From: Kalaharituber pfeilii
Taxonomy: Eukaryota > Ascomycota > Pezizomycetes > Pezizales > Pezizaceae
Direction of reading: 5' to 3'
NCBI GenBank assembly: GCA_015179045.1
Contig: WHUZ01000076.1
Span: forward strand, 124,001-188,000
Length of the DNA: 64,000 bases
The notes below the pieces were generated by a model. That model was not told the origin of the DNA. It ran no database searches and saw nothing but the letters and a program-made list of their open reading frames with translations. Numbering within the stretch: the stretch's first letter is position 1; every line of letters begins with the position of its first letter. A program made the position numbers and the translations under genes. Shown here piece by piece: positions 9,201 to 60,590 of the stretch.

Positions 9201-11022
9201 CGAAAAGTGAGAGATACATCATTCAATGACTGACTCTTTTTCTTCCCAGGTTGACCTTTGCCTGAATTCGAACCGTTAGAGTTGCTGCAGGTTCCGCTTT
9301 CCTCTTGATCACTATAAGGCCTTGGGAGTGTAAATAAAGCAACATCAATTAAATGATTAGCAAGATGTGGTTTCATTGCTTGTGGAAGGAGTTGGATGGA
9401 GCAGAATGGGCAAATCTGTTCACTTTCAGCGCTGGTTTCACACTGACGTACAAGCGATGCTCGACTAGAAGCAGAATTTGTCACTGCATTGTGCATATCT
9501 TTCAGATGGGTGTGAAATGAAGCTGCACTAGTGAACACCATTTCGCATGGATCCACATCACAAACCCACTCACGTCTATGGTACTGGAGTTCATGCATGT
9601 ACCACTCACGAGTGGTAGTGAACATGCGGTCTTGCTCAGAGCATGCCTGGAAGGTGCAGACGTAGGGCTGGAGATCCTTCAAAACATGATTCCTACGTCA
9701 TTCATATGTTAGCTATGCCCTGCCATGGCGAACAGCTGCAAGCGGGGTCACGTGAAATAAAAAAAAAAAAAAAAAAATGTTAGCTATAATTTCAATATCG
9801 TGCCCCTCTAAGGGGCTCACTTTCCCGTCATAGCTCTCGGGGCGGTATATGAGTAAAAAGATTTCTTTGGGAAAAAAAGGGGGGGACTCACTTCCAATTC
9901 TTGCGCCTTGCGATCTGTATAATTCTGTGACAGTAGGGACACTCAAAATGTTGCCTAGTTCCGGTGAAGTTATTGAAGGGTTTAGGAGGGTTAGGTATGA
10001 CATATGAGCGCCCCTCGGCCGAAGTACCCGAGCTTGACGCCACTGAACTAGCATGCGTTTCGCCAGATTCGGATTGGCGATCGTACTCGGCAATTGGATC
10101 TAAAAACCGTGGGCGTTCCGGCTTTCCAAGTGCGAGTGCGTCCTGAGTTTTCCTCGGATCGTTGAATACTGTAGCCGTCGTTTGCGACAACTGTCTCGTG
10201 CCAGCCTCGCTAGCACTACCTCTAGTCTTGCTAGTATCACCTTCAGCCTCCCTTAACCCCTCCTGTGCGAATACCGGCTGCTGCAATGCGGATTTCGTAT
10301 CAAACCCAACAATCTTCTCATGATGCGTCTTCCAATACACAAATTGCTGTCGACGTTTCAGATTGGCGCGCACTAGTCGATCAATTAAAAACTCGGGTAT
10401 AGAAAACCTGTCTTTGAGGCGTTGCATTTCGTAATGGTTGAAGTGGGAGACGTCAATTTTCCCAAGCTTATGGCCTTTATCTTGCGTTGCGGGGTTTTGT
10501 ATGAGCATGGAAATTCTGAATAGTGATGATATCACATGCGAGATATCTGAACACACATGATGAAGGTCGTTGTTCTCATGATTCCCTCCAATTTTTTGGG
10601 AAGGCTCCTCGGATTTTCCGGACACAGTCTCTTCAAATTCGGAATCTGAGAACTCGTCAAGCTCCTCATTCTGCGATGGGTCAAGTAATCCAATTGCTGA
10701 CTTGTTGTTAGCAAACAAATGTTAAATATGTTCACAGATGGAACAAACCTTCTCTGAGAAATGTCTGCAGATTACTTAATAGCTCATGGACGCTCTCACG
10801 AACATGGGAAGCCTCGCGTAACCGATGATCGAGGGAAACTTTCCCTTCCCTGTGGGCTCCTACATTTTCCGCCCAGACCCGGAATAGTCCTTGCTGATCC
10901 GTGAGTATTGCCTTCATTTGCTCCTCGCTGGGATCGGAATGTGCAAGGCGTTGTTCAATCAGGTCGTTAAACAGGGTTACCACATTGCGATAAGACTCCT
11001 GGAATCCCATAACGCTCGTCAT
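6201..11022 (-). CDS. C2H2 zinc-finger/NLR fusion: HeLo-like, NACHT, ankyrin (two frameshifts)
   Basis: A seven-exon gene read from splice sites: 11022-10749, 10696-9892, 9692-8648, 8595-8371, 8294-8084, 8022-7408 and 7347-6201 (about 1,440 aa). Residues 1-340 resemble fungal acuF-like C2H2 proteins. About 345-470 has CPYC, CTFQAC, CDVDPC and CPFC zinc-finger pairs. About 570-700 looks like a HeLo-like fungal STAND N-terminus. NACHT follows, with P-loop GIPGAGKT (about 846) and Walker B FIFVDALDEL; the end has at least four ankyrin repeats. STAND proteins are signal-operated ATPases, often in incompatibility or cell death. An extra base near 8890 and a frame change near 8500 break the frame: a recent pseudogene or assembly error. 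Intron 2 carries a micro-retroposon. The fusion is continuous within exon 3. Confidence 0.8.
9717..9776 (+). mobile_element. Micro-retroposon inside NLR intron 2
   Basis: It has the full GCCCTGCCATGGCG...CACGTGA core plus poly(A), with perfect 11-bp TSD ATGTTAGCTAT (9706-9716 and 9777-9787). On the gene strand the TSD contains GCTAAC, the likely branch-point sequence, so the insertion duplicated it. A decayed LINE-A tail (about 9830-9865, CGTCATAGCTCTCGGGGCGG) sits in the same 199-bp intron. Confidence 0.9.
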
Positions 11023-11446
11023 CTGAAGTGCCAGCTTGATACCTTCCTTTTTGCTTTATGTTTATGGGGAAATTGTTGTGTGCGTCGATGAATTGGAGCG
11101 CAAAAGGGTTGCTCTGCGTCTCTAACAGTCGTGGGCTCTTTCCTTACCCCGCATGATGTCCTGCAGCGGATCACTTCCCCATTCAGGAGTTACGCCAACT
11201 AGATTTGCGTAAAGGCCCTGCTTCACTAGTATACGTAAACCAGTAACGCGACACGTACCGAACAATTTATGACCTTCATATTTGGCTTTACCACAGTCAA
11301 TTTAGCCCGTAATTGATCCATCGCGCATACATATCAGAGATATATTGTGTGAGCTATGATACGGGGCAGGGACGCACACTCATGTAGTCTGGTTGCAACA
11401 CACTCATGCACATCATGCCAAGCCCCTCTCCCTAGCTGACCAGCAA
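11023..11446. other. Upstream region of the NLR gene, no gene seen
   Basis: It would hold the promoter and 5' UTR of the minus-strand NLR gene. An in-frame stop lies a few codons upstream of the chosen ATG at 11022, which supports that start. No TATA box or repeat family is convincing here. Confidence 0.4.
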
Positions 11447-11474
11447 TTTTTTTTTTTTTTTTTAATTTCACGTA

Positions 11475-11895
11475 CAGTTTTCCCTTGCTATACCGGATCT
11501 GTAAAATCTGGCCTTTTTCGTCCGGTATAGCAAGGTTCCGCTATAGAATAAAATGCTTGGCAGAACAGAATAGGATGGGCAGCAAAAATAATGTAATTGG
11601 GAACAACGACAGCCTAATTTTATTATGTAATGTTAAGTTTAGTAAGCATCTGAAGGTGAATGCAATGTGGGATAGCCAAGATTGGACGTATCAGTGTTAG
11701 TGTATCCGGTATAGCAAATAATATTTGTATGGAGACAGGGGGGTAAGTGCCTGGCAATTCCTGTCCGGTCCGGTATTCTTAGTGCGTCCGGTATAGCAAG
11801 AGGGTTTTGTATGGGAGCGGGATGTAGCAACCTGAGAGCGTCCGGTATAGCAAGGTTTCCGGTACAACGAGGTCCGGTATAGCAAGGGAAAACTG
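11475..11895. mobile_element. pogo/Fot1-like MITE
   Basis: A 421-bp element with TIRs CAGTTTTCCCTTGCTATACC and its complement, and TA TSDs at 11473-11474 and 11896-11897. The TIR-derived motif TCCGGTATAGCAA recurs at about 11520, 11705, 11786, 11840 and 11872, giving internal and subterminal repeats. There is no coding capacity. Assignment to the pogo/Fot1 branch rests on TIR form and the TA target only. Confidence 0.8.
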
Positions 11896-11950
11896 TACTG
11901 TAAATTCACCACAACCCGACGTGCACCACGTCCCGACGCACGTTTTACAC

Positions 11951-12789
11951 TAGCGGTGGTCATCAATTATCTACGGTAAGGTAAGGTGGAACATTCGTAC
12001 ATTTCATATCCCTGTACGTCTAGCCATTTGCGGCCGGCAATTGATGACTGGTCCAAAATGCAAAAAAGCTAAGGCTTGCACTCTGTAATTGTAGTCCATT
12101 CACCCCTACCCCGCATATCAACACAACTACAAATTCGTAATTCCTCGTGTAAGCCAAAAAGCGTCAATACAGAAGAAAATAGCATTGATAGACTCTTCAT
12201 TATCTTCCGCAGTTAGACCCCATCCAGGTCTCTCTTGTAGAGTCTTACACTCCCTCCATGACCTCTTTACATTAGTCATTTTATCTCCTACCTTTTTGAC
12301 CATAATATGATCATCTGCAGCAAACTCTTGGTCTTTAACATCCTTATGCTAGGCCGCTTGCTTGCCTCTCAATAGCTCTTGGTTATCCTTTATCCAAGCG
12401 ACTAGTCGCTCAAATTCCTCCTTTGTCCAGGGTTTAAGGGGATTACACTGACATGCCATGGCAGAATAAAGGAGTAAGATAGGGTGACTTATTTGCAGGA
12501 TTCTGGTATGGATCGGTGATGTCTACGGTGCAGTGCGGTGCGGTGCAGTTGCAGTGCGGTATGGGGTAGCGTTGAGTGGGGGCGGTTTGAGGAAAATCTA
12601 CGGTAAGGTACGTGGTTTTCCAAAAAGTACGGGACTATTTCGTGCCGTAGATTTTTCAAAAATGTACGGTGATAACGTACCTTGCCTTACATTTCAGGGC
12701 GGAACATAGCCAATGAGCGTTGTTGCCAAGACACGGAAAATGTACGAATGTTCTACTTACCTTACCGTAGATAATTGATGACCACCACT
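11951..12789. mobile_element. TIR element with Myb/SANT relic, PIF/Harbinger-like?
   Basis: The ends read TAGCGGTGGTCATCAATTAT and its near-perfect complement, about 50 bp each. TACGGTAAGGTA-type repeats lie inside both ends. The insertion interrupts the left TIR of the mariner-like element. The TSD is ambiguous (CTA or TA). A broken Myb/SANT-like frame inside fits PIF/Harbinger, which carries such a second protein, but no transposase is present. Confidence 0.6.
12128..12459 (-). pseudogene. Myb/SANT-like DNA-binding protein fragment
   Basis: The frame starts ATG at 12459 with LKPWTKEEFERLVAWIKDNQ, typical of a Myb/SANT-like helix-turn-helix. It hits one in-frame stop after about 38 codons, then continues to a stop at 12128 with aromatic residues typical of the domain end (WRECKTLQERPGWG). 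It lies wholly within the TIR element and is probably a relic of its accessory gene. Confidence 0.6.
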
Positions 12790-12993
12790 ACTAAAACTGA
12801 CCGCGCGCGACAACATATATCTCAACCACCATAGAATTTTGTATGCAACTTGTGGAGCAGTTAAATTAAGGACTATTCTTCATATTCCACACCTTAGCTT
12901 CTTCAGATATATTGCTTTGAAGTGATTTATGATTCATGAAATTCTTACCATAGATTGGCATAGGCTTGGCATATTTTTCGCTGTGATATCACT

Positions 12994-12995
<2 letters not shown>

Positions 12996-13024
<29 letters not shown>

Positions 13025-14272
13025 CCACATAACCCCGCTTGCAGCTGTTCGCCATGGCAGGGTCCCTGGACCGAGGTCCTTATGGCCCGGAGACAGGCAC
13101 CTAAAAACAAACAACAACTCACTATATACACCGACATTCAAAAGGGAATAGAGGAAATAAAACCCATGAGACAACCCGCTATGCCGTCAAGTCCATTTCC
13201 TCCACCTCCCTCCCCTTCCCCTTTCTGTCCACCTTTGAATTTCTGTCCCAGTCATACAGGCACGAATCGTACCACTGGCCTGACAACCTTACCTTCGCTG
13301 GTGTTTGGCTATCCGATTCCACCTCCCCCTCCAGGTAGATGACAACCGAGCTAGCCTTCTTTCCCTCCCTCCTCTCTTTCTTCACCAACCATCTTGCCAC
13401 AACAATCTTTCCCATCCATGGGTTCGCATTCTCCATCCAATCTCTTACTTTCCCGAGTTTCTTTGTCACCGCAATTCCATGTACTACGATCGCACGACCG
13501 GATTGCGGGAGTGTCCTTTCCTTTGGGATTGGCTTCGGAGATGGTGCTGGAGATGGTTTCGTGGACATTTTCTGCTTGGGGGGACTGGTACTCTGTCCCC
13601 CTTTCACTTTTTTGGACTGGAAAGTAGTGGACTTTGTTCGGCTTTTGGGTGAGGTCGGTCAGAATTGTCCCCTTCCGGGGGTGTGCTTGGCGGGATGTTC
13701 TGGGAGACAACTGCTGCATATGACAGCTTTGGTGGTTTCTCCGGGTCAGTTTGTGATTCCCCTTCCTTTGAGGGTTTCCTCAGGTGCATATTGTGTATTT
13801 CTGTGCATGATTCCGTCTTCACCGCTAGTGCAAGAGCAGCAATGACGCGATGCACACTCCTGATTTCACACAGGAACCTGTCTGTTGGTTCAAAGTTTGG
13901 TCTTGTCTTCTGGTCTTTTATACAAGCATGTATGTGTTCGATGACATCCCCCACGGCATCAAGCATATCGGACATATTGACTCCGCCGAGCCGATCTGCG
14001 ATAGACTTGTACAGTGGGGCCTCGAGACGGGTACTCTTGGCTAGAGTTGTTTTGGCACCTACGGGCATGTTTTTTGGTGCTGGGCTGCCCAATGCCATGA
14101 ATCTATTGGTCGGATCCATGGTGGGAATGCCAAGAAGTCAGGGATGGTGGTGTGCTGGCAACGGAGTAAGGAGCTGAAAATTTCCTCAAAACTTAACTCC
14201 CAAGGGGGAAACTTGAGGAGTTGGGTTTTTTGGAATAAAAATTAGATCTAACCTGTCGAAGTGGCTGTCGCT
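12996..14272 (-). mobile_element. Full-length ORF1-only half-LINE (B tail)
   Basis: The 11-bp TSD GATATCACTAG lies at 12985-12995 and 14273-14283. The uninterrupted homologue at about 2683 has the site once. On the minus strand the element has a 5' UTR (14272-14120), ORF1 (14119-13179), about 120 bp of 3' UTR, the LINE-B hairpin/TTATGTGG tail and poly(A). There is no ORF2. The empty site proves that a 1.28-kb ORF1-only unit inserted as such. Confidence 0.92.
13179..14119 (-). CDS. Half-LINE ORF1 protein (one frame change)
   Basis: ATG at 14119 opens a frame of 171 codons (MDPTNRFMALGSPAPKNM...) ending at 13604. The -1 frame continues immediately to 13179 with IVVHGIAVTKKLGKVRDWM, SSVVIYLEGE and VRLSGQWY, the conserved ORF1 C-terminal domain. 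The junction reads CCA AAA AAG TGA, a perfect A AAA AAG slippery heptamer directly before the stop. This is either programmed -1 frameshifting or a one-base loss in an A-run. The full protein would be about 310 aa. It has no zinc knuckle, and its role is presumably RNA binding. Confidence 0.7.
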
Positions 14273-15085
14273 GATATCACTAGTATTGAATTCCACTTAT
14301 CACACCTGAAGTAAATTTGATAAAAGCAGTAGGACACTTGAATATCAATATTTTATCTTATTCAAAGATGTGAGAAGCACACCAAGAAAACTTCTCAAGA
14401 AGTGGTGGAGTTATTCACAAAATTCATTTTCTCATAGAAACTGTATGCAATAATTGTATAGGAAAACTACCTGAAATGCCAATTTGATGTATAAATTAGG
14501 CATTAAATAACATTAAGCCAATTGAAGTACTAATTGATAAGAGGCCTATTGGGGACACTCCCTAGCCACAATTCTATAGCCATTATGGTGACCGTTGAAG
14601 AGAAGTTGTGCATTCTACCCTCCAGTTCACTTTGTATGGGAATTCCATATAACTGCATGCCAAGACATCAATGAAAAACTCATGGTGCCATTAATCAACC
14701 ACAATGTCTTTTCAGCGCAAATAGAGGGATTAAAGGTGAAGAATAACCCTTTATTTATTTCTCCTGAAGAGCGCATACAAAATTCTATTCTGGTGGTTGA
14801 GATATATGTTGTCGCGCATGCTCAGTTTTGGTGTAAAACGTGCGTCGGGACGTGGTGCACGTCGGGTTGTGGTGAAAGACAGTAACCCCGCTTGCAGCTG
14901 TTCGCCATGGCAGGGCAGCCAACCAGCATGGGCCTTAGTGGAGACCGCGCTAGCCTGTTACATTCTAATTTCTAGTTTTAAAATTACATCCTGCTGTCCT
15001 CGGCTCAGCCTCATCTGCGGAGAAAGTGACACCGTTCCAACTACCCCTCTCGACTGCGTAAACCTCAACGACACATCTCATTATT

Positions 15086-17628: not shown

Positions 17629-17683
17629 TTTTTTTTTTTTTTTTTCACGTAACCTCGCTTGCAGCTGTTCGCCATGACAGGGC
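17629..17683 (-). mobile_element. Micro-retroposon
   Basis: Poly(T), TCACGTAACC, CGCTTGCAGCTGTTCGCCAT and ACAGGGC give the usual 5' boundary. TSD ACCCCCCACG lies at 17617-17626 and 17687-17696. Confidence 0.88.
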
Positions 17684-25063: not shown

Positions 25064-25355
25064 TTCTACATTTCCTAGAAGGGGAGGAATGTGGAGGGGA
25101 TGGACATGACTGCTTGATTTTCTGGGGGGATATTTGGGTATTTGTGCTTGATTGTTCTCTTGGAGGATTGGTCTTTCGCTTTGTGTTTCCTCTGCATCAC
25201 CGAAGTCGTGGTATTGTTGTGCTTTTACAGGGGACGATTTTGTAGGTAGTTGCACAGGTACCTGTCTCCGGGACTTCGGTCTAGGGATCCTGCCATGGCG
25301 AACAACTGCAAGCGGCGTTACGTGAAATTTTTTTTTTTTAAAAAAAAAAAAAAAA
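25064..25355 (+). mobile_element. LINE-B 3' UTR and tail
   Basis: It includes CTGTCTCCGGGACTTCGG, also found before the B tail at 28130 and 34390, then CCTGCCATGGCGAACAACTG ... GTTACGTGA and an odd T-then-A homopolymer. It truncates the 3' side of the kinase gene. The TSD is unclear. Confidence 0.6.
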
Positions 25356-27448: not shown

Positions 27449-28421
27449 GGCCCTGTTTGGTTGACCACATATAGCGGAGCTTTGAAGCGGAAACTACAGC
27501 ACTTCCTAGTTTCACTAGTGCCGTTTCGCGTGAAACTTATCAGTGAGTCTCCGCCCACAAAATTGAAACTGTCCAATGGAGGTGAGTATAGTTACGTATC
27601 ATTCGGTTGGTACAGCATGACTGCATCACCACATCGCGACATCGACATCGCATTCTACCGCTAACTCAACCCTGACAACATCCTCACTCCAGATGTATTA
27701 TTGTGGGCACCGGGGGTGGGGTGCGCCAGAGAGTTAAGGTGTGGAGGAAGGAGAAGAGAGGTGGAGGGACATGGGAAAGGGAAGGTCAAGGTCATGGAGT
27801 GGAATAGGGTGGCGGTATCCAATTTCACTGCCTTGCTCCTGGAGAGAGGGAGATGTGCGGTGTGGTTGAAAAGGCTGGGGGTGGCCCGAATCGGATAAGT
27901 GCAGGTGCGGGGAGGTGCAAACGGTGGAGCACCTCGCTTTCCGGTGCGGAAACGAGAAGAACCGTCCAGAAGGTTTTGAGAAGTGGAGCGACATGGACAA
28001 GAATTGGAAGAGGGAGGCAGAGAATGGGGAGGAGTATGACGTGTTAGAAAATTTCTTTTCCGGAATCAGGTTCTAGAAGGGGAGAGGGGGGGATGGAACG
28101 GGGATGTGTATGTAGGACTTTCTTTGTTAAGCCTGTCTCCGGGCTTTGAGGGGACCCCGCCATGGCTTAGCGCTGCAAGCGGGGTTACGTGATTTAATAA
28201 AAAAAAAAAAATCCAGATGTATTATTGAAGGAATGGAAGTAGCAGAGTACACGTTATTTTACAATAAACCGTTATGTAGAGATTAGTATTGCAAGGAAAT
28301 GCATATACTTACAGGAGGTCCATTTTCTGCAAACTGATAGCATTCTTGGGAAGTACTGCACATGGCAGACATGTTCCTGCATTTGTTCATCTGATACGAC
28401 CTACTGCAATCAAACAGGGCC
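27449..28421. mobile_element. PIF/Harbinger-like MITE with a LINE-B insertion
   Basis: TIR GGCCCTGTTTGGTTG pairs with GCAATCAAACAGGGCC, and the 3-bp TSD is TAA (27446-27448 and 28422-28424). Both are textbook for PIF/Harbinger. Without the LINE-B copy it is about 450 bp and has no transposase. Confidence 0.82.
27704..28211 (+). mobile_element. 5'-truncated LINE-B with ORF2 C-terminus
   Basis: A 16-bp TSD TCCAGATGTATTATTG (27688-27703 and 28212-28227). The 3' end of ORF2 reads CRCGEVQTVEHLAFRC, a LINE C-terminal C/H module distinct from LINE-A's, then WSDMDKNWKREAENGEE and a stop near 28075. The 3' UTR ends in a B hairpin with perfect CCCCGC/GCGGGG pairing, then GTTACGTGA and poly(A). This links the B tail to a coding LINE. 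Confidence 0.88.
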
Positions 28422-33283: not shown

Positions 33284-33345
33284 TTTTTTTTTTTTTTTTT
33301 TATATCACGTGACCCCGCTTGCAGCTGCTCGCCATGGCAGGGCAC
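33284..33345 (-). mobile_element. Micro-retroposon
   Basis: 12-bp TSD GACAAAGGTGGT (33272-33283 and 33346-33357). Standard core with the usual 5' boundary (GCCATGGCAGGGC in this orientation). Confidence 0.9.
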
Positions 33346-35943: not shown

Positions 35944-36902
35944 AAGTCTTGTCAAGGACGGTAGCTGAGCCCTAGCCGGTTTCTCTCTGTGGCGCGCTGA
36001 TGTCTCGAGGTTTGTCGTATCCCATCTTCATCAGCAAAAACGAAAAAATCGCCCCATGCGCCTGGAGCATAGGGCGCACAGGGCAAGAACTGGGGAGCAT
36101 GTTGCAACGCGGTCCCGTCGCGTGCGCCATGTTGCATCCTACCATACATGGATCGCCCTGAGAAATCGGTGAATGCATCTGCCAAGTCTGGAAGATCCGG
36201 CCTTGCAAGCAGCCCCCACAACGCACAGCCAAGCGGCCTTCGCATCACTGATTCAGCAAACAAGAATGGTTGCACCACATGAAACTGTTGGCTAATTGGC
36301 TGTGCCTAGGGCTTGATCTACAATGCAACTTGCTTTGGGAGTTCACTGGCGCTGCTAACCAACTCCTAGACCTATCCAGTCAGGAATAAAGACGTCACGG
36401 ATTTATTAGGTTTCAACCTATTCTTCTCTAAGGATGGTGACCGCATCCAGTGAGGCCGGCAAGAATCAGGATTTTATTCAAGTCTTCTCGAAATATAACT
36501 ACTTGGTTCAATACTCTTCAAAGGTGCATAGCTTAAGTTGGGCACCTCCTGGATGCTATCAGATATACCGTGTCCTCTTGGGGGATACTATATTCTCTTG
36601 AAGATAAGAGTAAGACCCATTTTGTCCTATAACCTTCACAGCAGAGCTTACTAATTATGACAGCTGGTACATAAATAGCCAACGTTGCATTCGAATTCAT
36701 AATGCGGGGTAAATCCATTCATTTAATCTACTATTATCTCAACAAGTTTGCTTCCCCAAGTAAATCCTAGCACATACAATGAAATAACCAAGACCAGTCA
36801 CCGAAAATGAAATGCCTAATACAAAACCTCTCGGGACAGGCACTTTCTGCCTGTACGCACACTGGCCGTTTTTCTCACTTATGATCGCCTGGTCTCAGCC
36901 TG

Positions 36903-36940
36903 GCCCTGCCATGGCGAACAGCTACAAGCGGGGTCACGTG

Positions 36941-36971
<31 letters not shown>
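36903..36971 (+). mobile_element. Micro-retroposon inside the MULE left TIR
   Basis: TSD AGCCTGG (36897-36903 and 36971-36977). The right TIR has the empty site GGTCTCAGCCTGGGCCTC in inverse orientation, which gives the exact insertion point. Confidence 0.92.
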
Positions 36972-37408
36972 GCCTGGGCCTCAGCTTGAGTCCGAGCTGG
37001 CCATGGAATTGCCCCAAGATGCCGGTAGCCTCCGCTTGTCTGCGAGTGCTTTCACTTGATCTGCCGGTAGCTTCCGCTTGATCTGAGAGTACGTCCCGCT
37101 TGGTCTGAGAGTTCAACATCCCGCTTGGTCCGAGAGTACAACGTCCCGCTCGGTCTGAGGGTACAATGTCCCGCTCGGTCTGAGGGTAGGTTCAGCTTGA
37201 TCTAAGCTTATCCTGAAGGCATTCTTATGACTGGCCTAATATAGTAAATATTGCAACTGTAGTGGCTATAAATGGACATGTTGTTGTCGGCAATCAAGTA
37301 GATATCATTCAGCACTTTCACTGATAAACACGCTCCGAATTCATTACCTGCTATCTGCTACCTATACCAAGTCCTTTTCTGCTATTCTATATATATCCAG
37401 TGTATAAT

Positions 37409-39700: not shown

Positions 39701-40113
39701 CTAGATAGTTCAGCCCTCGTACAGTAGCTTTGTATTTTAGCTCAATATATATTAGTTATATTCTCAGACCGAGCGGGATGTTGTACTCTCAGACCAAGCG
39801 GGACGTACTCTCAGATCAAGCGGAAGCTACCGGCAGATCAGGTGAAAGCACTCTCAGACAAGCGGAGGCTACCGGCATCTTGGGGCAATTCCATGGCCAG
39901 CTCGGACTCAAGCTGAGGCCCAGGCTGAGACCAGGCGATCATAAGTGAGAAAAACGGCCAGTGTGCGTACAGGCAGAAAGTGCCTGTCCCGAGAGGTTTT
40001 GTACCTAATAGCCAAAACTTCAGGTAATTATATAGAAATGACTAAAAAAAATAAAGGAAGCTAATACAAGAAATAGGACGCATTAGGTTGATAAAAATCG
40101 AGAACATCCATAA

Positions 40114-41524: not shown

Positions 41525-41558
<34 letters not shown>

Positions 41559-41720
41559 GTGACCCCGCTTATAGCTGTTCGCCATGGCAGGGCTTATGGG
41601 AACTTGATGTTCCCATCACACTTGAGGATTGCGAGGAAGGTGCACAGCTTCTCATTGCTAGATGTGAGGGTACAGTAATACTAGATGAGGTACGGTGAAG
41701 TAAAGATGGTGAGGTGACAG
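40114..41720 (-). pseudogene. DUF6532-like accessory gene, broken
   Basis: Minus-strand pieces: a serine-rich segment (about 41720-41400) interrupted by a micro-retroposon; 41391-41071 (RGLTFHAEQQIRHFGLFEG ... KAVESYV); a linker with ACRSSVTTLYKINTLSKEEI; and 40749-40114 (FFDSINGIFICLVCAALYHC, LDAWKSGVC, YGTLLKSFGAH). The layout resembles DUF6532, abundant in fungal transposon-rich genomes. A GTTAGT..TTTGACTCAG intron at about 41395-41440 is plausible. An in-frame TAG near 40790 and phase problems at 41070 mark it as decayed. Confidence 0.55.
41526..41592 (-). mobile_element. Micro-retroposon in an accessory-gene exon
   Basis: 12-bp TSD CTTATGGGAACT (41514-41525 and 41593-41604). Removing it restores a continuous serine-rich minus-strand frame (SSSVMGTSSSHKRKDTSARN). 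Confidence 0.92.
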
Positions 41721-44168: not shown

Positions 44169-47100
44169 ATGATGAATTCCTTTATGTCAAGCTGCCCTTT
44201 ATGCCCTCTTCGCTACAGTTCCGCAGGAGCGTACACTAACCATCTCAGAAAATACCATCCAGAATATACTATTCTGGACAGTTCTCGGCGCTCCTTGAAA
44301 CGACCACAATCCGACCTTACACATCCGTTATCCGATAACCGGAAGTTAATTGCCAAACGTACCGGTGAGGAGTTAGAGCAACGTATTATGATGTATTTTA
44401 CGGATTTTCCGGTAGAGATTGGAGACGGTGAAAACTCTCACTCAACTGTTGAATCTCCTACAGCCTCTGTCTCCCAGTCTTCTACCTCACAGTCCACCTC
44501 CGAACAGTCTTCTACCTCACAGTCCACCTCCGAACAGTCTACTTCCGAACAGTCCACCTCCGAACAGTCTTCTACCTCACAGTCCACCTCCGCACAGTCT
44601 ACTTCCGAACAGTCCACCTCCGAACAGTCTTCTACCTCACAGTCCACCTCCGCACAGTCTACTTCCGAACAGTCCACCTCCGAACAGTCCACCTCCGAAC
44701 AGTCTACTTCCGAACAGTCTACTTCCGAACAGTCAACCTCCGAACAGTCCACCTCCGAACAGTCTACTTCTGAGCAGTGCACCTCCAAACAGTCCACTTT
44801 CAAAGAAGTTTTTCCTGTAGAGTCCAAGGCAGGAGAGCCCATAGGGGTGCATCTTTTTCAAAGGCAACGCAGTTCAACACACAACTTCTTTCAACCATTT
44901 GTCAGTCCTCTTGACTACAAGTTAGCACGTTTTCTCTACATCTCACATGTTCCCAAGCAACGAATTGATGAGTTCTTCCGAGAGAACCTTTTCCCAATTC
45001 CCCCTGTCAGTATTCCAACATCCAGTATCTCCTTCCAGTCAGCACATTCTCTCTACAATCAGATAGACAAAATGGATACAGAACCTCAATGGCATGAAGG
45101 GACTGTTGATTTTAGACTTGCTCTGGGCACAAAATTCTATTATCGACATATTATTGATTGCATCAAATATCTGCTGAGGCAGAAAATGTATGCAGATTTC
45201 CTGGTCTGGGCTCCTGTTAAGGAACAAAATGCTGCTGGTGAGCGAATTTACCATGAAATGCATACTGGAAATTGGTGGTGGGAAACACAAGTAAGTAGAT
45301 CTTGCATTACAGACTTTTCCGGCATTAATTGTATATGTAGGAGGAACTTCCGGTCGGAAGTACATTAGTTCCAATCCTTCTTGCGTCGGATGGAACATAC
45401 CTCACAAACTATTCTGGAGACAAGAAAATTTGGCCGGTATGATACTCCATTGAGACACAGGAGGAGGAATCACTACAAGTCATCCATGATATTCTAACCC
45501 ATATCCTCCACCCACTCACCGACATGAAATGTCAAAAGGGAATTGAAATGATATGTGCTGATGAACAGCTTCGTCTTTGTTTTCCTCGTTTATGTTGCTG
45601 GCTAGCAGATCATATGGAAAATGCAAAATTGCATGGCATCTATCAGACTGTCTGTATTTCATGTACTGTCCCTGCCAAAGCACTCGGAAATGGCGACAAA
45701 TATCCGGATCGTGACCATCAGAAATATGCGGACGCATACAAGAATTCCGACACTAAAGGTCTTCATTCCGACGGAGTAAAATTTGTTAATAACGCACTCT
45801 GGACACTGCCACTCGCACCTCCGGACCTAGTAAGAGGTGATTTGCTTCACAATATTTATTTGGGGATTCTTGAACATATGATGGGTTGGATACAGGAATT
45901 CCTTACCCACCACAATCGGCTTGTCGCATTTGACTTCATATGGAAAAGACTCCCTCCCTATCCATCATTCAACCCACCAGGTAAAGCATACCGGTCCATC
46001 ACACAGTGGACTGGCAAGGAACTCCGCAATGTCGGAAAGGTTATTTTGGCTTCGTTTGCAGCTGCATTACGTCGGACTTCCGACCAGGAAAGACCCACTA
46101 GTGGACAGATACAGGAATTCCACCAGGCAATACTTTGTATCCGGTATCTAACAGACTTTTGCTTAATGGCACAGTATAAGGTCCATACTAGCAGCACCAT
46201 AGGATATATGAACTACTACCTCCAGTGCTTCCATCGCTATAAAGATATCTTTCTCCGATACCGTGCACCCAAGGCTTCAAAAGATGAAGCAGCAATTGCA
46301 CACCGTCAGCTTACAGCAGAACACCGTCTCCAGGATATGGAAAAAGAGGAAACTGCGACAGTGCGCAACCGCAAAAAGAAAGAAAGCTTAGTTGAACGGC
46401 AGCATTTAGTAAAGGAAATTTTGGAACAAAAGTCTCATTTTAATTTTCCGAAAATTCACCTTATCTCACATTTTAGTGATCAGATATCCAAGTATGGATC
46501 CTTGCCTCAATACTCTACCGAGATTTGCGAGTCCCTGCACAAACAGTTGAAACAAGCATACCGTCGCAGCAATAAGGTTGATGCCATGCCGCAAATTCTC
46601 CAAACGTACACTCGAAGTCACGCATTTGCAATGCGTGACAAAAATATTTCAGCTTGGTCAAAGGAGTTACCGGAGGTCAAAAATCAGATTTGCAATGTCA
46701 TAAAGCCGACGCAGCAAGTCCGGAACCTCCGCCAGCCTGTCTTAAAGGGCAAGAAAAGCCCCGAGAGATTATATTCGCTTAAGCTTATTGCTACCACGTA
46801 TGCTTGTTCAGATCTTATTGAACTGGTACGGAAATACCTGCAACAAACATTGAGCTACTCTGAATCACAGGTGGAAGTATTAATTAACAGTGACTTATGC
46901 CGTGTATACAATACATTGCGTATTTCTATAGCTGATATACAAAGCTCAGATGGTTACATTTTGCATAATATTCGAGCTACAGGTCCATACAAATTTCGGA
47001 ATCGTGCAGTGAGATCTGATTGGGCATGGGTACGTGATCCAGGTTTAAAAAATTCAATTAATGGACGTCTTCCAGCAAAGGTAAAGCTATTTTTTGAACT

Positions 47101-50075: not shown

Positions 50076-51911
50076 CGATGGATGTCACTTACGACTAATC
50101 CCTGGGAGGCTGGGATTGACTATGTGGAAACCATAGGACCTATCATGCTATCGCTACTAAACGTTTCCGAAGTGTATACTACTCCTCCGAGAAAAACGCC
50201 CACATCTAAAGTACAACAAGAAGCTATGAAATCTGCACTACATCAATTTCACAAACATCTGTCCTCAGTATATAGTTTTGGTGCAAATTCTTTTAGTGAC
50301 GAATTTGTATTTCTGAGTGATGATGATATCAACCGTATATCAAGGTGTTGTACAGATGTGTTTGACCTTGCTTCTTTACAAAAAGTACTTATAGGAAAGT
50401 GGAAAATTCTTTATTCACCTTTAGGGATGCATATTAATGCTCTACTAACCCTACTCAAACATGTTCTAGCAAATATCACTGTGGCCGCAAAGCCTACCCG
50501 AGGACCGTGAGTAGGAGTCTTAGAGGTTGCGGAAACCTCAAAGCAGTTTCCGACACAGCTACCGGAAACTCCAAAGCCGTTCCCGCAGCTACCGGAAACT
50601 CCAAAGCAGTTCCCGCAGCTACCGGAAACTCCAAAGCAGTTTCCGACGCAGCTACCGGAAACTCCAAAGCAGTTTCCGACGCAGCTACCGGAAACTCCAA
50701 AGCAGTTTCCGACGCAGCTACCGGAAACTCCAAAGCAGTTTCCGACGCAGCTACCGGAAACTCCAAAGCAGTTTCCGACGCAGCTACCGGAAACTCCAAA
50801 GCAGTTTCCGACGCAGCTACCGGAAACTCCAAAGCAGTTTCCGACGCAGCTACCGGAAACTCCAAAGCAGTTTCCGACGCAGCTACCGGAAACTCCAAAG
50901 CAGTTTCCGACGCAGCTACCGGAAACTCCAAAGCAGTTTCCGACGCAGCTACCGGAAACTCCAAAGCAGTTTCCGACGCAGCTACCGGAAACTCCAAAGC
51001 AGTTTCCGACGTAGCTACCGGAAACTCCAAAGTAGTTTCCGACGCAGCTACCGGAAACTCCAAAGCAGTTCCCGCAGCTACCAGAAACCACAAAGCAGTT
51101 TCCAGTAGCAGTTTCCACAGCTACTGGAAACTCCAAAGCAGTTTCCGGTAGCAGTTTCCACAGCTACTGGAAACCACAAAGCAGTTTCCGGTAGCAGTTT
51201 CCACAGCTACTGGAAACCACAAAGCAGTTTCCGCAGCCACCGGAAACCTCAGTGCAGTTTCCGCAACTACCAACGCAGTCCGAAACCTCGAAGCAGTTCT
51301 CACAGTTCCTACAGTTTCTACAGTTTCTGCAATTTTCCCAACTACCGGAAATGCAATTGACATTTCCGCAACCACTGGAAATGCAATTGGCGTTTCCACA
51401 ACCACCGGAAATGCAATTGACGTTTCCGCAACCACCAGAAACGCAATTGATGTTTCCGCAACCACCGGAAACGCAATTAGTATTTCCACAACCACCAGAA
51501 ACGCAATTTGCATTTCCACAACCACCAGAAACGCAATTTGCATTTCTGCAACCACCGGAAACCTCAAAGCAGTTTCTACAACCACTGGAAACCTCAAAGC
51601 AGTTTCCGCAACCCCCAGAAATGCAATCCCCACTTCCGCAACCTCCGAAAACCCAAACGCAGCTTGAAGAACTCCAACAGAATAATACTCCAAATGAAAC
51701 ACAACCATCTGAATTCCCAATCACTATATTGGAAAACAATAAAACCCTAATTCCTGCCATAGCCCCCAATACTGGACCCAAAAAATTAAGGTGCCCCCGT
51801 GGGGGCACTCGGCTATTTGTACCTCCCAATTGTGATCATATACGCAATCCAGATGAGAAACTCCAGTTTATTGAGCAGGCTAGGTTGGCTCATAGTATCA
51901 GTGAGATATGA
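50058..51911 (+). pseudogene. Repeat-rich reading frame of unknown family
   Basis: The N-terminal 150 codons (MSLTTNPWEAGIDYVETIGP, TPTSKVQQEAMKSALHQFHK, ISRCCTDVFDLASLQK) are globular-looking and end in TGA at 50508. The same frame then continues through about 15 copies of an 11-residue unit (LPETPKQFPTQ) and degenerate FPQPPETQ units. The C-terminal segment is KLRCPRGGTRLFVPPNCDH, ending at 51911. At least two stops interrupt it. No domain recognised; it may be the element's own gene. Confidence 0.45.
50540..51650. repeat. 33-bp hairpin-forming tandem array
   Basis: From about 50540 to 51075 an almost perfect 33-bp unit (GCAGCTACCGGAAACTCC then AAAGCAGTTTCCGAC) repeats about 15 times. Each unit holds GGAAACT and AGTTTCC, able to pair as a stem. 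Degenerate relatives (GCAGTTTCC, CCACCGGAAACGCAA) continue to about 51650. Because 33 is a multiple of 3 and the unit lacks stops, several frames on both strands stay open. Confidence 0.92.
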
Positions 51912-53184: not shown

Positions 53185-54236
53185 ATGTGGGAGGCTCTTG
53201 GCGAATGGAATGTGGCGGTGGCTGATGAGGTCGTCATGCGGGACGGTCTCGGGGCAGTCATTCGGGTCGATGTGGCCAACTGGGAGCGAGAGGCACAGGC
53301 CGTCGCAGATGCGGAAAGGAAGACGATGGAAGACATTATTGGAGGGCTCAGTTTGATGACCCGCGCCGCTGGAACCAGTGCGGCCCTGGTGGACCTTATG
53401 GTTAGAGAAGGGCAACTTGTTGAGAATGCCCCACTATGGAATCTGCAAGACCTTCTGAAGACGATCTGGAGCAAGTCACCCATACAGCTTGGAGACGTGG
53501 GTATCGCCATCAGGAGATCCAGGACTGCAGCACATGCAGTGAGGCAGATCGTGGAGGCGCTAAATCAGGTTGGGAACGGGAACACGAACGGACCAGACTC
53601 CGGGGAGGAGGAGGAAGGGGGGGGACCCAGTGTCGAACCCCTTACCCTGGAGGAAGATATGAGTTTGGATGGGGACAAGGGGGCAGCAGCTGGGGACGCC
53701 AGTGGGGATGGGCACCGCCTCGGGCAAGGGGAGGAGTTCTGGGGTTTCGATAAGGGAAGCGAGATAGAGGGACATAATATTCCCGAAGCGCTATATTGGG
53801 CACACAGGGCATTACACCGAGTGATGCTCTACAATTTCAGGAGAGTCAAGGGGATGGCCCCAAAGCAGGGCAGTAAGGTCCTGGATACACTACAGGCGAC
53901 TACCGCGGGGTTGGCAGCTCTGATCAAATCACCCATTTACCCCGCCAGTAATATGGAGCAACTGGATATGGAGAAGGTAGAGGATGTGGAAGGCGGCGGC
54001 ACCTATGAAGACCTGATGGCAAAGGCGGCCTTGGGACGTGACCTCCGGAATATCAAGGGCATGGTAGAGGAACTCTATGTTGCACAGGGGTTAGCCTCTC
54101 AGAAGGTAGCAAACAGGCTACTGCAAAGGAAGAAGGAGGAGGAAGCACAGAAGAAAAGGCAGAAGGAACAGGCAGCAGTTAAAACCTGGGCGCAGGTGTT
54201 AAGAGGAGAAGAGCTCGCCGAGGCACGGGCGGAAGC

Positions 54237-54270
<34 letters not shown>

Positions 54271-55304
54271 ACGGAGGCACAGCGAGGAGAAGGACCCGCG
54301 AACCAGGCAGAAGCAGAAGCAGAGGGGGCGAGGGCGGCGGCCATTACCGATATTCCGACAGGGCCAAGGATTGGGGTAGGGAACAGGCACCGGCCCATGC
54401 CAGTCCAATGGCAACCGAAGGAGGCAGTAGGCAGGAATGATGTGGTCATTACAGTCAGACGGCAGCTGGATAACCTCCCGCCAGCCGAGTGGCAGAAGAA
54501 CAAGGCAGCGGCGGCTAAGAGGGTCAAGGACGAGCTCGCGAGAGTAGGCGGAGGCGCGCAATATGACGTTAGGGCAGTGGAGCAGTCTGCAGTTGACCCC
54601 AAGGAGAGATATATTCTGGTGCGCCTCCCAGAGGTGGTAGAGGATAAGGAGACAGCAGCGGAAGAGCTGGTGGCGAGACTTAAGCGTACAACTATCACCT
54701 GGACAGCGATCTTTGTGGAGAAACCGGTCTGGAGGCTCGTATTGCATAGGGTGGATAGGACAGGTGTTGAGAGTGATGCAGTTCTGGATGAGCGTCTGAG
54801 GAGCGCTTACCCTGATATCGCGTGGTCGCATAGGCCAGTACGTACCATGGGAAAGGGAAGAGGGCAGAGACCGGTGGTCCTTGAGTTCTCTAACGAGAGA
54901 GATGCAGCAGAGATGGCAGTGGGGGGAATAATTATTAATGATAGGATCTACAGGCCAGAGAGATACCGGAGTGAGCAGGGCCAGAGTGAGGCGCAAGACT
55001 GGAAGCGTTTTGCCAGGGAGCGCGCCGGCATATCTGAAGGATGCTCAAAATGTGGGAAGAACCACGCCATGGGATATATCTGCGGGGGATGAGGTTCAAG
55101 CCGGTGAGACCAGCCATGGGAAGCCAGCAGGTTCGAGAAAAGACCTTCTGCTATAAATGTCAGGGCCAGGGGCACATAGCAAGGAACTGTCCTCGGCAGG
55201 GACAGATGAGAACAAACCCCCGGATCCAGGGACGGCCTGGCCATCCACAGGCTGGGGGCTGCTTCCGGTGCGGGCGACCAGGGCATTATGTAGCGTACTG
55301 TTAG
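53185..55304 (+). CDS. LINE-C ORF1 (gag-like, zinc knuckles)
   Basis: The frame opens at 53185 (MWEALGEWNVAVADEVVMRD) and runs 635 codons: helical N-terminus, acidic linker, coiled coil rich in K/E/Q (about 300-350), an (AQ)n tract, and an RRM-like part (NDVVITVRRQLDNLPPAEWQ onward). A first Cys/His cluster CSKCGKNHAMGYIC is followed by TGA at 55090. The +1-overlapping frame carries CYKCQGQGHIARNC and CFRCGRPGHYVAYC (two CCHC knuckles), ending at 55304. Either a base was lost near 55088 or a frameshift joins them. It should bind LINE RNA. Confidence 0.8.
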
Positions 55305-55439
55305 GTCGACAATGAGGGTTTCACGCGCGTGGGACGCGGGGGGCGACCCATCAGGTTATGATGCCCGAAGCCGATAAATATCGGTTAGGGGGGGAGAGGG
55401 GGGAGAGGGGGGAGGGGTACCCGAGGTACCCCCTGGGGC

Positions 55440-58400
55440 GTGGTAGTTAAGGTACTTAATGTGAGAAAGGTTTGGGAGTATGCAGAAGCCATGGGGCCAT
55501 GGGGAGAAGCTGAGCTGAGAATAATCAGCGAGGTGCCAAGGAGTTTCGGAGCAGGTGAGAGTGAGCAGGCGGTGGGTTATAGGCAAGGACAAACAGCGAT
55601 CTGGGTCTCGAAGTGGATATATGAGACACGGGGCATAGTTGAGCGGGAGGCAGGAATCGACGATGTGGTTGTTTTAGATATTGCGGAATGGCGAGTAATT
55701 GGGCTGTACCGACATCCACGGCAGAGCAGAGAAACGCGAAACAGGTGGATGGAGAGACTGGTGAGACTATGCCAGGAAGCGAAGGATCGAGGACAGCAAG
55801 TTATGGTTGCAGGGGACATGAATGTTCAACACAAGTACTGGGCAGGGAGACTCTCTCCACGGGCCTCGGACGATAAAGATCTTATGAAGAGCATTACAGG
55901 ATGGATGGATGCAATAGGACTTAGAGCGGCGGTGAACAGAGGCGATCCAGTTACGAGGCGGGAGAAGGTACAGCACAAGGCCAGTTACTCGGCCATTGAT
56001 ATGATTGCGGGTACTCGACCTCTGGGCAAGGTACAGAAGTTGTGGATCGGTTCGGATCATGCGATGCTGGTAGTGGGGTTATCGGCACCCTTTGGAGGTC
56101 CAGCCGTAACAGGGGAGGGCGGAACAAGGAGACGTAAGAGGACAGATAAGGGACCTCCAAGTCAGAGAGATGCTGAGGCTGGGGCCGGGGTCGTGGCCGA
56201 GGCCGTAGCCGGAGCCGGAACAGGTCTTCGCGGTGCAATTGCTGGAATGCGGGAGATATTGGCGCAACCATTAGGGGGGAGCGTAGGGATCAAAGAGATT
56301 GAGGAAGTCCTAGGAACTAGAGTATTTGGCAAGAGGCAGGAGGCAAGAAAGGGACAATGTGAGTGGTGGAATGACGAGCTAGAGCGACAGCGTGGGGAGC
56401 TACATCAACAGACTCGGCGGGTGGATAGGGCACGTGTTAGAGCTACTGGCAATGAAGCGGAGAGGCAGGAACAAATACTGCGGAGACTCCGGAAGGACTT
56501 TCGAAGGAAAGTAAGGAGAGCTAGAGATACGTATCTGGATGAACTATTGGGCAAAGAAGATGTTCTGCTAGAAGGGGGTGAATTGGGAGAAATGGACAAG
56601 GTTTGGGAGACATGGAGGCGGGTCTCAGGGAAGAAACGGAAGAGGTGTATTGGCTTGGTCCCAGGACCGCCAGGACTGGCTCCGGAGGAGGTCATAGAGG
56701 GAATTGTACAGGCAAATTTCCCGTCATGCAATAGGGAGGTTCTGGGAGCAGGGGAGGTGACGTATAGGCAAGCTCTGGCAGAGAATATTGACCAGGGGAC
56801 AAATAGGGAGTCACAGAACTGGAGGGAGATATGGAAGAAGGTATGGAGAAAGCTCAGCGGCAAAGCGGCAGCAGGAATCGACGGTTGGAATAAGAGAGCG
56901 CTAGCAAAAGTGGTGAAAGCAGCTGGGCCAGAGGCAGAGGAACGGCTATTAGGAGAGGTGTTTAGGAAAAAGTGGGAAGAGCATGAAAGCTGGGATGGAA
57001 GAAGGGATATAAGAATCAAGATGATCATGAAGCCAGGGCGAACAGCAGCTGGGGACCTGTCCAGCTGGCGACCAGTGGGTGTTATGGGCATTTTAGAGAA
57101 GCTATATGAGATGGGCCTAGTTGAAGGCATGAAAGCGAAAGTGCGCTGGTTTGAGCATACACTGGGAGCGCGCACGGGACAGGGAGCGGTGGATCTGCTG
57201 ATCAAGCATGCAGACTATGAACGCATCTTTATAAGGAGGAGTACGTGTGTTAAGAAGACTGAGTGTCATTCCAATACTCACGCTAGGCTCGGTATCTACT
57301 TTGACGTCAAGTCGGCCTTCTCGGGAACGTCAGGGGCACAGGTTCTACACGCTTTAATGGCACATCCGGAGTTGGTGGAATGGGCAGATGCAGTGATTGA
57401 TAGGGCAACGGAACGGACTGCCTGGATTCAGTGGGATGGGCCGGGGGGGAGGGAAGGCCAATAATAGTCAATGGGCTACCACAAGGAGGGCCAGCGTCGC
57501 CTCTTATTTGGTGCCTAGTAATGGATGTGGCACTGCGAATGGCGAGGCGGAGTCTAGAGAAGAGGATCTGGGATTATATGGCTAAGCAGGCGCCCTCCGC
57601 TGGGTCTAAGAGGAAGGCAGGGATGGGACATCTATCAGAGCAACAAAAGCGAGTAGTCGACTGGAGAATCAAGAACAAACACAATATAGAGGTTGACACA
57701 GATGCCTATATGGATGATGAGTTTATAGGTATTACGGGTCTATTACCTGGCAAACAGTGGGATAACTTTCTTGGGCTCATAGAAGATACGCTTAAGGAGT
57801 TCGAGGATACCTGGGGGCTGGTGTTACCAAAGGAAAAGCGGCATACCGTTGCATACGGAGGAGACAAGAAGGACGGTGATCAGAAGCGAGAATATGAGAG
57901 GCTCGGAGTTAAAACACCGAATACAATAAAGGGGAATTACCAAGATACAGTAAGTATAAGGGTCAAGAAAGCATGGGGACGGACGTGGCAGATGGCACAA
58001 ACCATAAGAGAGAGACGTCTAGGAATAGATGTTATAGTTAAGCTGATTAACATAATACTACTTCCAACACTTACCTATGGAGCGGAGATATACAAGTCTA
58101 CAAAGGATCGGGAAACACTGAGAAAAGAGCACACACGAATGGTTAGGGCACTACTGCAGTTACCTACGAGCGTCTCGTTCAAGGTAGCAGTAGGGGCACT
58201 GGGAGTCATACAAACGGATGCATACATTGATAAGCTTCGGAGGAGAGCAGCCATTAGGATAGCAACAGTCCCAGGTCATATAAACCGGAGTAGGATAGGG
58301 AAAGGAAGTCTAGTTGATAAGCTGATACAGGAGGCGGTGGGGGAAGAGCTAGGCACCAGAATCGAGTTACACGTAGCTCGGGAGTGGGAGCCGTGGAGAA

Positions 58401-59380
58401 AGGGAATAATCTTGGGAAGTATGGAGACAGAGCAGAGGCGACCAAAGGAGGAGGAATGTGAACGGTGGATTGCTGCAGTGGCAGTGTGGGAAGAAGAGCA
58501 GGTTTGGAGTGGGGCACAGGTGTGGTATACGGATGGGAGCCGCTCAGAGGCTGGGGTAGGGGCAGCAGCAGTTAGGGTCCGCAGGCCGACACTGGGAGCA
58601 TATGGGGGTGTGGGTGAGCAAGAGTCAAACAGATATGAGGCATACAGGGTAGCATTACCGGACACATATGACAACGACGTAGCCGAGCTAGCTGCGGTTC
58701 TGGAGGCATGCCGGGTGGCGCTCTTGCGAGCTGATAGGGGCCTTGGAAAAGGAAAGATGTACATCCTGACAGACTCACAGTATGTGGTACGGACAGCGTT
58801 GGACGGACAGTGCAAAGCACGCTCAAGATTAGAGCACGAACTCCTCAGGATGAGCAGCAAGCTGGCGGATAAAGGCATAGAAGGATATATAATATGGGTT
58901 CCGGCACATCTGGGGATTGCTGGGAACGAGAGAGCAGACAAAGAGGCCAAGAGGGCAGTAGTAGAACCGGGGTGGAGGATGCAGGGGGTCCCCGGCCAAC
59001 TTACGGTCGCAGAAGTTAGGGCACGAGATGGAGCGGAGTTTGCGAAGGACTTGGGGGCAAAGGCGTGGGGTCTAGGGCTGCGGCACTGGACCAACAAGGG
59101 AGTGAGAGCGTTCATGGAGATATCTCGCAAGAGGGTAGCGTACCCTCTCTGTGGGAAAGACAAGCCGGCAATGAGAGACCATATCATGCGGAAATGCCGG
59201 AAGCTCAAGAGGGAGAGGCTAGAGGAGGGCCTCTATGGGACGCGCAGGAATGGGCGGGTGGTACCCACAGGTTTTGATGTCTGGTTCGGGAAGGAGGAGT
59301 GGTCTAGGACGCAGAATTTCTGCATGAGGGTAGCAGAGCGGATTCGGCCTGCTAACTTTGGGAAGCGGGGCCAAGGGTAG
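55440..59380 (+). CDS. LINE-C ORF2: endonuclease, reverse transcriptase, RNase H
   Basis: APE-type endonuclease motifs: VMVAGDMNVQHKYW and IGSDHAMLVV. RT motifs: SSWRPVGVMGILEKLYE, YFDVKSAFSGT (A), NGLPQGGPASPLIW (B) and AYMDDEFIG (C, YMDD). RNase H: VWYTDGSRSEAGVG, DVAELAAVLEACR, YILTDSQYVV and WVPAHLGIAGNERADKEAK. The C-terminus has YPLCGKDKPAMRDHIMRKC. The frame breaks once, at a run of seven G near 57443-57449: the upstream frame ends at 57464 and the downstream frame begins by 57431. One more G would restore it. The start codon is uncertain, because the frame is open from a GTG at 55440. It would nick DNA and reverse-transcribe its RNA in place. Confidence 0.85.
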
Positions 59381-59881
59381 GAGGGTGGAAGGAGGCTATG
59401 GGAGGATTGCTGGGGGAACTCATTTTCTTCTTTCTTTCTTTGCTTTTGGTTTTTTGTTTTTCTTTCCTAGAGGGGGCAACCCCGTTTCCTATGTAAAGTC
59501 TTGTACTGCGTATAGTCCCGGAAAATGTGCGATAGCCAGGCACCGTCGGGGACATTAAATAATAACAAGCTGGAGCAACACCCATGCATGAAAGTCCGCT
59601 TAGTCAGCGTCTGGTTACGAGACTAGAGGTCGGGTACATCTAGCTTCATGGCTTCCGCGATCCCAATCAGGGACTTGATTGGCAATGTGACTGGATCGAT
59701 TATCAGTTACATTTACGGCAGACATGCTTAGATTCGAATTGCAATTGATATTGAAATGCCACTAAAGCTCTCTAGCTGTAACGGCCTCCAAGCAGTCCAC
59801 TTTTCTACAAGCACCCTTTCTATCATCTACAGTTGATTACTAGTGAACCTTCACGACATAGATCATGCAGATAAGAACAAA

Positions 59882-60590
59882 ACTTAAAGCGCCAGTTGAG
59901 CGATGAGGAGGCAAGAAAGATTGCCGCAGGAACCTCCCCAGCCCCGGCAGACAAACCGGCTGGCAGCACGCCCGCCCCCACCCAAAACCCCGGACCACAG
60001 ACACCAGCACCAAAACCACCGACACCCCGCCTCCGGACCACGCCCCCGCGCCCCAAAGCCAGATCCCACCCTCCGACCCGCCCGGACAACACCACTTCGA
60101 GACAAGGCATTGTCGTCCACGGCATAGCCCTAAGGAAAGACCTGGGAAATCTCAAAAGATGGTTGGAGGCGTCCAACAAAGACATAGGCAAAATCACAGG
60201 GATCAGATGGCTACGGAATGGCCCTGCCATGGCGAACAGCTACAAGCGGGGTCACGTGAAATTAAAAAAAAAAAAAAAAAAAAGATGGCTACGGAAGAAG
60301 ACAATCTTGACGGAGGAAGGAAAGCAGACAAGTTCCGTGGTAGTGTACCTGGAAACGCCAACGGAAAGTGGGAAAGTTAGACTCGGAGGAAGGTGGTTGC
60401 GGACAAGTGTGTACGAGACAGATAGAGGAAGGAAATAGGAAGGTCACTGGGGTTATCTCTCCGATTTTTCACTCGCATCAAGTTCGAAGTCCGCGGGCAC
60501 CACATGCATTTAGCCGTTTGCTCTTATTCTTTCGTTCTTTAATTTAATAAAACACCTCGCCAAGCCCATAGGGCGGCATGCGAGTAATGA

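Follow-up and report, generated by a model that had tools for sequence, protein, structure and literature searches.

In this study, we analyzed a 64,000-nucleotide (nt) stretch of the genome of the fungus Kalaharituber pfeilii (contig WHUZ01000076.1, positions 124,001-188,000; hereafter, the window) in the context of its 78.0-Mb assembly of 360 contigs. A 39-nt sequence followed by poly(A) proved to be a real class of retroposon with a fixed 5' end, which consists of only the tail of a long interspersed nuclear element (LINE) and has more than 1000 genomic copies. The 39-mer is the 3'-terminal hairpin common to several LINE subfamilies, and the original prediction that the core of these units is identical to the terminal 39 nt at LINE 3' ends was borne out. 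With regard to their origin, the sequences lead us to give a probability of about one half to the reading in which the usual template of the 39-nt units would be a LINE RNA that is shortened from its 5' end and delimited by this hairpin.

The 14-nt start of the unit, GCCCTGCCATGGCG, occurs exactly 1858 times in the assembly (961 forward and 897 reverse), versus 0 and 0 for the reversed-pattern control, which excludes chance; the exact 3' tail pattern, GCGGGGTYACGTGA, occurs 2448 times, versus one control match. In the C-type LINEs, which are the main source, the base before the 14-mer is G; this base is not G in 1435 of the 1858 genomic matches, is G in at most 423, and the exact long upstream 20-mer is present in 92. 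Starts one base further in, as YCCCTGCCATGGCG, are detectable solely where a pyrimidine precedes and number 54 in the genome. Copies for the analysis of 5' ends were picked by their 3' tail, which avoided choice by 5' end, and comprised 103 distinct copies (94 of the 100 listed tail matches, C1 and C2, and nine in the window). Target-site duplications (TSDs) were searched for by program, and 71 of the 103 copies passed the cut of a score of at least 8. Expressed as nt upstream of GCGGGG, 50 of these 71 ends are at 22-31 nt (39 of them at 24-26), none at 32-61, four at 62-63, 16 beyond 63 and one below 22. When flanks were swapped between copies as a decoy control, 90 of 510 pairings scored at least 8 overall, and merely two of 510 did so at 22-31 nt, which indicates that the scattered ends include false ones and that the peak at 22-31 nt is real. 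At the stricter TSD score of 9.5, there were 45 of 56 ends at 22-31 nt, none at 32-61, four at 62-63 and seven beyond, one of which (at 289) is a T-run artefact. The discrete class that the original prediction had proposed is thereby upheld, as a continuous spread without a peak was seen neither in the 103-copy sample nor in the genome-wide pattern counts. The 39-nt units have a fixed 5' end, a TSD and an A-rich tail; they share with 5'-truncated LINEs an identity to the LINE 3' end, but not the variable 5' ends.

All ten short copies that had been listed for the window are present, one split by a later insertion and two diverged:

9717-9776, + strand: 39-nt unit with poly(A), core 9717-9755; TSD ATGTTAGCTAT by program, flush
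34825-34889, + strand: 39-nt unit with poly(A), core 34825-34863; TSD GACTACTCCCGTC by program, flush
35881-35942, + strand: 39-nt unit, one G short, with poly(A), core 35881-35918; TSD AAGTCTTGTCAA by eye, flush
36903-36970, + strand: 39-nt unit with poly(A) in a terminal inverted repeat, core 36903-36941; the partner repeat is the empty site
60221-60283, + strand: 39-nt unit with poly(A), core 60221-60259; TSD AGATGGCTACGGAA by program, two extra bases (tg)
41527-41593, - strand: 39-nt unit with poly(A), core 41555-41593; TSD AAGTTCCCATAA by program, flush
33286-33343, - strand: 39-nt unit with poly(A), core 33305-33343; TSD ACCACCTTTGTCG by program, one extra base (t)
17629-17683, - strand: diverged 39-nt unit with poly(A), core 17645-17683; TSD CGTGGGGGGT by program, three extra bases (ttg)
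4230-4278, - strand: diverged 39-nt unit with a short A tail, core 4239-4278; 10-bp TSD with one mismatch, by eye
14882-14916, - strand: 5' part of a split 39-nt unit; 12-bp TSD with two mismatches, by eye
11447-11474, - strand: 3' part of the split unit (core end and poly(A)); repeat family D9, by eye

The claim that every copy begins GCCCTGCCATGGCG and ends TCACGTGA, the expected core end, holds for seven of the ten. The start is exact in nine, the exception at 17683 being GCCCTGTC; the copies at 4278 and 17683 finish by eye with TTACGTGA, and the copy at 14916 is interrupted after GGGGTTAC by an insertion of ~3.4 kb and continues at 11447 (by eye). TSDs, as had been claimed, accompany the copies: six were found by program, that of 36903 by its empty site and three (35881, 4278 and the split copy) by eye. 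At 35881 the program picked a wrong, distant match and the TSD found by eye was used instead. At 36903, where the program score was just 6.2 and under the cut, the partner inverted repeat (39916-40003) keeps the uninterrupted target, and the filled and empty sites differ by the 39-nt unit and poly(A) with a duplication of 6-7 bp.

Two larger elements are associated with these copies. The ~3.4-kb insertion (11475-14881) breaks one 39-nt unit close to its TACGTGA end, and part of it (14272-14757) is similar to 2678-3167. The 36903 unit is in one arm of a DNA transposon (36820-40003) whose inverted-repeat arms are 96% and 99% alike and which surrounds an open reading frame (ORF) of 766 residues that is MULE/FAR1-like by eye.

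The original prediction had treated the short copies as a single, distinct unit, a view that comparison of hairpin variants did not support, since short units derived from several different LINE variants begin at one structural position. A simple pattern, which let in a few doubtful rows, was used to split the pooled loci into short and long forms. By this measure, the CATGG...CTACAA variant has 20 short versus 15 long forms, GCAA 11 versus 16, GCAC five versus one, GCAT three versus one, CTTGG...GCAT three versus two, CATGGCCAAGTG three versus one and CTTGG...GCGC three (L025, L066, L087) versus two (L143, L144), and the CTTGG...GCAC variant has no short form among the pooled loci and five long ones. 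The long types B2 and B3 have few short forms by pattern (two of seven and one of six), with duplication support for L009 alone. Among units that start with A, five of seven ACCCTGCCATGGCG loci have a flush duplication (L132 and L133 have none, and L135 was excluded as LINE-like), as do three of three ACCC...CCAAGTG units; those with flush TSDs are L129, L130, L131, L134, L136, L142, L105 and L115. In total, eight variants have a TSD-backed common start (G-start CTACAA, GCAA, GCAC, GCAT, CTTGG-GCAT and CTTGG-GCGC; A-start GCAA and CCAAGTG), and each also occurs on longer LINE-type forms, either LINEs or 76-nt units. This sharing of one structural start by several LINE hairpin variants favors repeated by-products of LINEs over one lineage of short interspersed nuclear elements (SINEs). 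The bases 3' of CACGTGA differ between short and long members and were not used as support. One LINE copy with a C-type hairpin at its end (L137, in C14) has a broken frame whose two pieces match the Pfam domains RVT_1 (2e-07) and RNase_H (2.8e-12).

The share of short forms is far lower in the T-type than in the C-type. Long T-type forms (GGACCCTGCCATGGCG) number 284, versus 83 with HACCCTGCCATGGCG, some of the latter being LINE-like. At a TSD score of at least 7, 42 of 49 C-type copies are short versus nine of 36 T-type copies (Fisher p ~2e-08, ignoring relatedness), a comparison that left out lower-scoring copies (five C, 13 T). A single haplotype accounts for 17 of 52 sampled short-looking copies.

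Longer copies of the window revealed both ordinary truncation and a second fixed end:

27704-28211, + strand: 5'-truncated LINE-B copy with tail, an example of ordinary truncation; 5' end 475 nt upstream of GCGGGG; TSD TCCAGATGTATTATTG
34385-34485, + strand: ~76-nt unit with tail, of the second fixed class, start TAAGCCTGCCTCC; TSD ATCTTGTAGAATG
13026-13062, - strand: hairpin of a LINE-type copy, not a short unit; LINE-like sequence goes on upstream
25289-25325, + strand: hairpin of a LINE-type copy, not a short unit; LINE-like sequence goes on upstream

The copies at 27704 and 34385 had been described as LINE-B copies with variable 5' ends; both are LINE-B copies, but the end of the second is not a variable truncation and belongs to the second class. 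Exact long C-type forms (CTAGACCCAGGGGCCCTGCC) number 92 in the assembly, and nine of the 30 examined have, by eye, a duplication at or within two bases of AAGCC and represent ~76-nt units (L101, L102, L103, L108, L111, L112, L115, L125 and L127). The others continue LINE-like in 20 cases (15 of one type and five of a variant), and L107 is ambiguous. For the CCTTGG hairpin, GCCC is preceded by a non-G base in 244 copies, versus 62 copies with the long CCAGG upstream, and three of the eight long forms examined resemble 76-nt units by eye (L139, L140, L141). Each fixed start coincides with the 5' foot of a hairpin predicted from local sequence, AAGCCUG/CGGGCUU for the 76-nt class and GCCCUGC/GCGGGGU for the 39-nt class.

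The latter pairing is the predicted terminal stem, which is followed by CACGUGA and poly(A). When no more than 39 nt of upstream LINE sequence was included, the probability of its basal stem was at least 0.99 in seven of seven copies, and 91.7% of cells were paired across the ten hairpins versus 37-50% when they were slid. The terminal stem is plausible, not proven. A structural block would be expected to arrest a reverse transcriptase (RT) at the 3' foot of a hairpin, whereas the starts of the units are at the 5' foot.

The junctions of the units with their targets provide a further line of evidence. In 51 short copies with a TSD score of at least 7 and a TSD of 8-16 bp, the junctions divide into 23 that are flush, 19 with 1-6 extra bases and nine with overlaps of 1-3. 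Because the gap was measured from a fixed position, 25 nt upstream of GCGGGG, copies with indels are misplaced; for example, the hairpin of L009 is two bases longer, leaving ~1 extra base rather than three, and a two-base deletion is present in L045. The extra bases were T (5), C (5), TT, TTT, TTC, TTCT, TC, TG, GC, GGCT and GCCCTC, which are mostly T or C and absent from the LINE, an extension into which would give G, GG or AGGG. In a hand count of the base before the core among 100 listed of the 1435 non-G copies, T was found in 57, C in 28 and A in 15. Extra T or C on the sense strand corresponds to purines (A, G) added to the complementary DNA (cDNA). The R2 RT is described as adding mainly untemplated A in balanced deoxynucleoside triphosphates (PMC8857657), and Moloney murine leukemia virus RT as adding A, C and G on uncapped RNA and favoring C on capped RNA (PMC6885630). 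The extra pyrimidines at 5' junctions are indirect evidence and suggest run-off at an uncapped RNA 5' end. A 7-methylguanosine (m7G) cap at the template end predicts G added on the sense strand, against which stands the predominance of T and C. In addition, other loci served as a comparison for nine longer copies whose TSDs scored 9 or more; L036 and L091 were ambiguous or false, and the remaining seven comprise three flush junctions, three overlaps of 1-4 and one junction with an extra base.

The explanation that we consider most likely is a LINE RNA that already ends at the hairpin before it is copied. LINE machinery would insert the 3'-terminal stem-loop of these fungal-type LINEs via target-primed reverse transcription, the RNA having presumably been shortened from its 5' end to the hairpin foot, for instance by 5'-3' decay that stalls at the hairpin or at a bound LINE protein, or by cleavage at the foot. 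The RT would copy this template to its very end, at times adding one or a few untemplated bases, and a second barrier at the AAGCCUG/CGGGCUU hairpin could yield the rarer 76-nt class. Such units would not need their own promoter and are probably dead on arrival. We also advance, more tentatively, the idea that the terminal hairpin, alone or protein-bound, both halts RNA decay and serves as the RT entry site, in which case the more than 1000 insertions would be footprints of decay-protected RNA and retroposition would need neither a promoter nor a gene nor a full-length transcript. As the seven-pair stem resembles a tRNA acceptor, RNase P-like cleavage at the foot was considered as well; the second hairpin is not tRNA-like, which was counted against it. 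Several observations weigh against a template that ends at the hairpin. The probability of the basal stem fell below 0.1 in six of seven copies with 100 nt of upstream LINE sequence and in five of seven at both 150 and 250 nt, that of the AAGCC hairpin was at most 0.22 once at least 60 nt were included, and the terminal stem in its LINE context can gain one pair, which would place the unit start one base inside the stem. A middle hairpin, GGGUCUAGACCC, has no 5'-end peak in the 103-copy sample. Covariation fails as proof of the stem, as two-sided compensatory changes were found in none of 12 pairs and a shuffle control gave no excess. An excess of T at -1 is also seen where junctions are flush or overlap (15 of 32), so the T bias may partly be a site preference, and the ~7 junctions of truncated LINEs are too few to contrast with those of the short units.

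The main rival is abortive reverse transcription, in which an RT anchored to the terminal hairpin drops off full-length RNA after unwinding and copying it, such that the cDNA ends at the 5' foot. This requires no additional RNA, matches the end to the likely recognition hairpin in every variant examined and accords with the common attribution of LINE truncation to RT dissociation (PMC2104539). We regard it as a serious alternative of lower probability than a shortened template. It does not on its own account for the second fixed end, which is at the far hairpin, and the non-LINE bases at 19 of 51 junctions resemble run-off. Still less likely is a true minimal SINE, that is, a small RNA gene derived from the LINE end with its own masters and transcription that amplified alongside the LINE. 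The fixed start, the excess of short over long forms in the C-type and their scarcity in the T-type, and the frequent single haplotype would all suit such a lineage. Against it are the eight hairpin variants, all present on long forms, that begin at the same place, and the length of 39 nt, which is too short for a two-box RNA polymerase III promoter. Moreover, the expectation of no known RNA head was supported: no Rfam family reached the gathering score in the window, and no tRNA-, 7SL- or 5S-derived head with an RNA polymerase III promoter was recognized, the promoter boxes being judged by eye. Ordinary variable 5' truncation combined with chance has a negligible probability. Longer LINE copies do show scattered ends, but the empty interval at 32-61 nt, the sharp peak and the decoy control oppose it, and the 5'-end distribution of the TSD-scored copies rules out ordinary continuous truncation.

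The fixed 5' end, TSD and A-rich tail of the 39-nt units are features of canonical SINEs. Classical SINEs bear a promoter-carrying head. In the stringent-type LINEs UnaL2 of eel and ZfL2-1 and ZfL2-2 of zebrafish, the 3' stem-loop is required for retrotransposition, the ZfL2-2 ORF2 protein binds its 3' stem-loop, and the cognate SINEs have the same 3' tail (PMC4176376). The K. pfeilii units are like those LINE/SINE pairs in that a 3' sequence is common to the LINE and the short units, and it is predicted to fold locally in the copies tried, although longer LINE context competes with this fold and two-sided covariation was not found; they differ in that only the tail hairpin remains and that it is supplied by several LINE variants. 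Likewise, they resemble 5'-truncated LINE copies in their LINE 3' end, TSD and poly(A), but their ends are fixed at two hairpin feet rather than spread. Fungal SINEs such as Mg-SINE of Magnaporthe (PMC2104539) and AfuSINE2 and AfuSINE3 are also short and non-autonomous; for Aspergillus fumigatus, PMC5063351 gives AfuSINE2 as 140-493 bp, tRNA-related and of low copy number with TSDs reported, and AfuSINE3 as 259-343 bp, 5S-related and in five copies. The MINE (WEIRD-MGL) chimeras of Magnaporthe are LINE 3' ends retroposed with TSDs, but their 5'-truncated LINE part is joined to a full-length 1.1-kb non-coding RNA (PMC2104539). No description of a LINE-tail-only unit of this size was found in the titles and abstract openings of open-licence literature, which is a weak negative. 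If our reading is correct, the units would set a very low size limit for LINE mobilization (~39 nt and poly(A)), point to the smallest element that the RT recognizes and provide a clean setting in which to ask whether short LINE insertions arise from RT fall-off or from templates shortened beforehand. Such families would be overlooked by repeat annotation in which very short repeats are discarded.

A second poly(A) family that ends in a hairpin, TCGCCATAGCCC..GGGCGGCACGCGAGTAATGATAT, is present in the window on the + strand (1804, 5838, 61730 and 62104, among others) and the - strand (3730, 20973, 30742, 31441, 33454, 34983 and 35543, among others). It was used as a control (TCGCCATAGCCC...GGGCGGCA; 26 copies, ten of which, from the window and loci, have a TSD score of at least 8.5), and its ends are mostly scattered, while two (offsets 17 and 20) lie at the hairpin foot or close to it. 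The fixed-end effect is weaker in this family and perhaps not absent, the control being small and some of its TSDs doubtful given the decoy rate at score 8.

Several other features were observed. By eye, the 39-nt units at L099 and L100 (around 1500) are nested, each having landed in the hairpin of an older LINE-type copy. Another LINE (53185-59560) has a different 3' end without the 39-mer hairpin and has Pfam endonuclease, RT and RNase H matches, the RT in one ORF being slightly under the cut-off. Besides LINE ORFs, the window has ORFs that are ankyrin-like, kinase-like and zinc-finger-like by eye, and tandem arrays with 33-bp and 15-bp periods lie inside open frames at 50515-51173 and 44406-44854, respectively.

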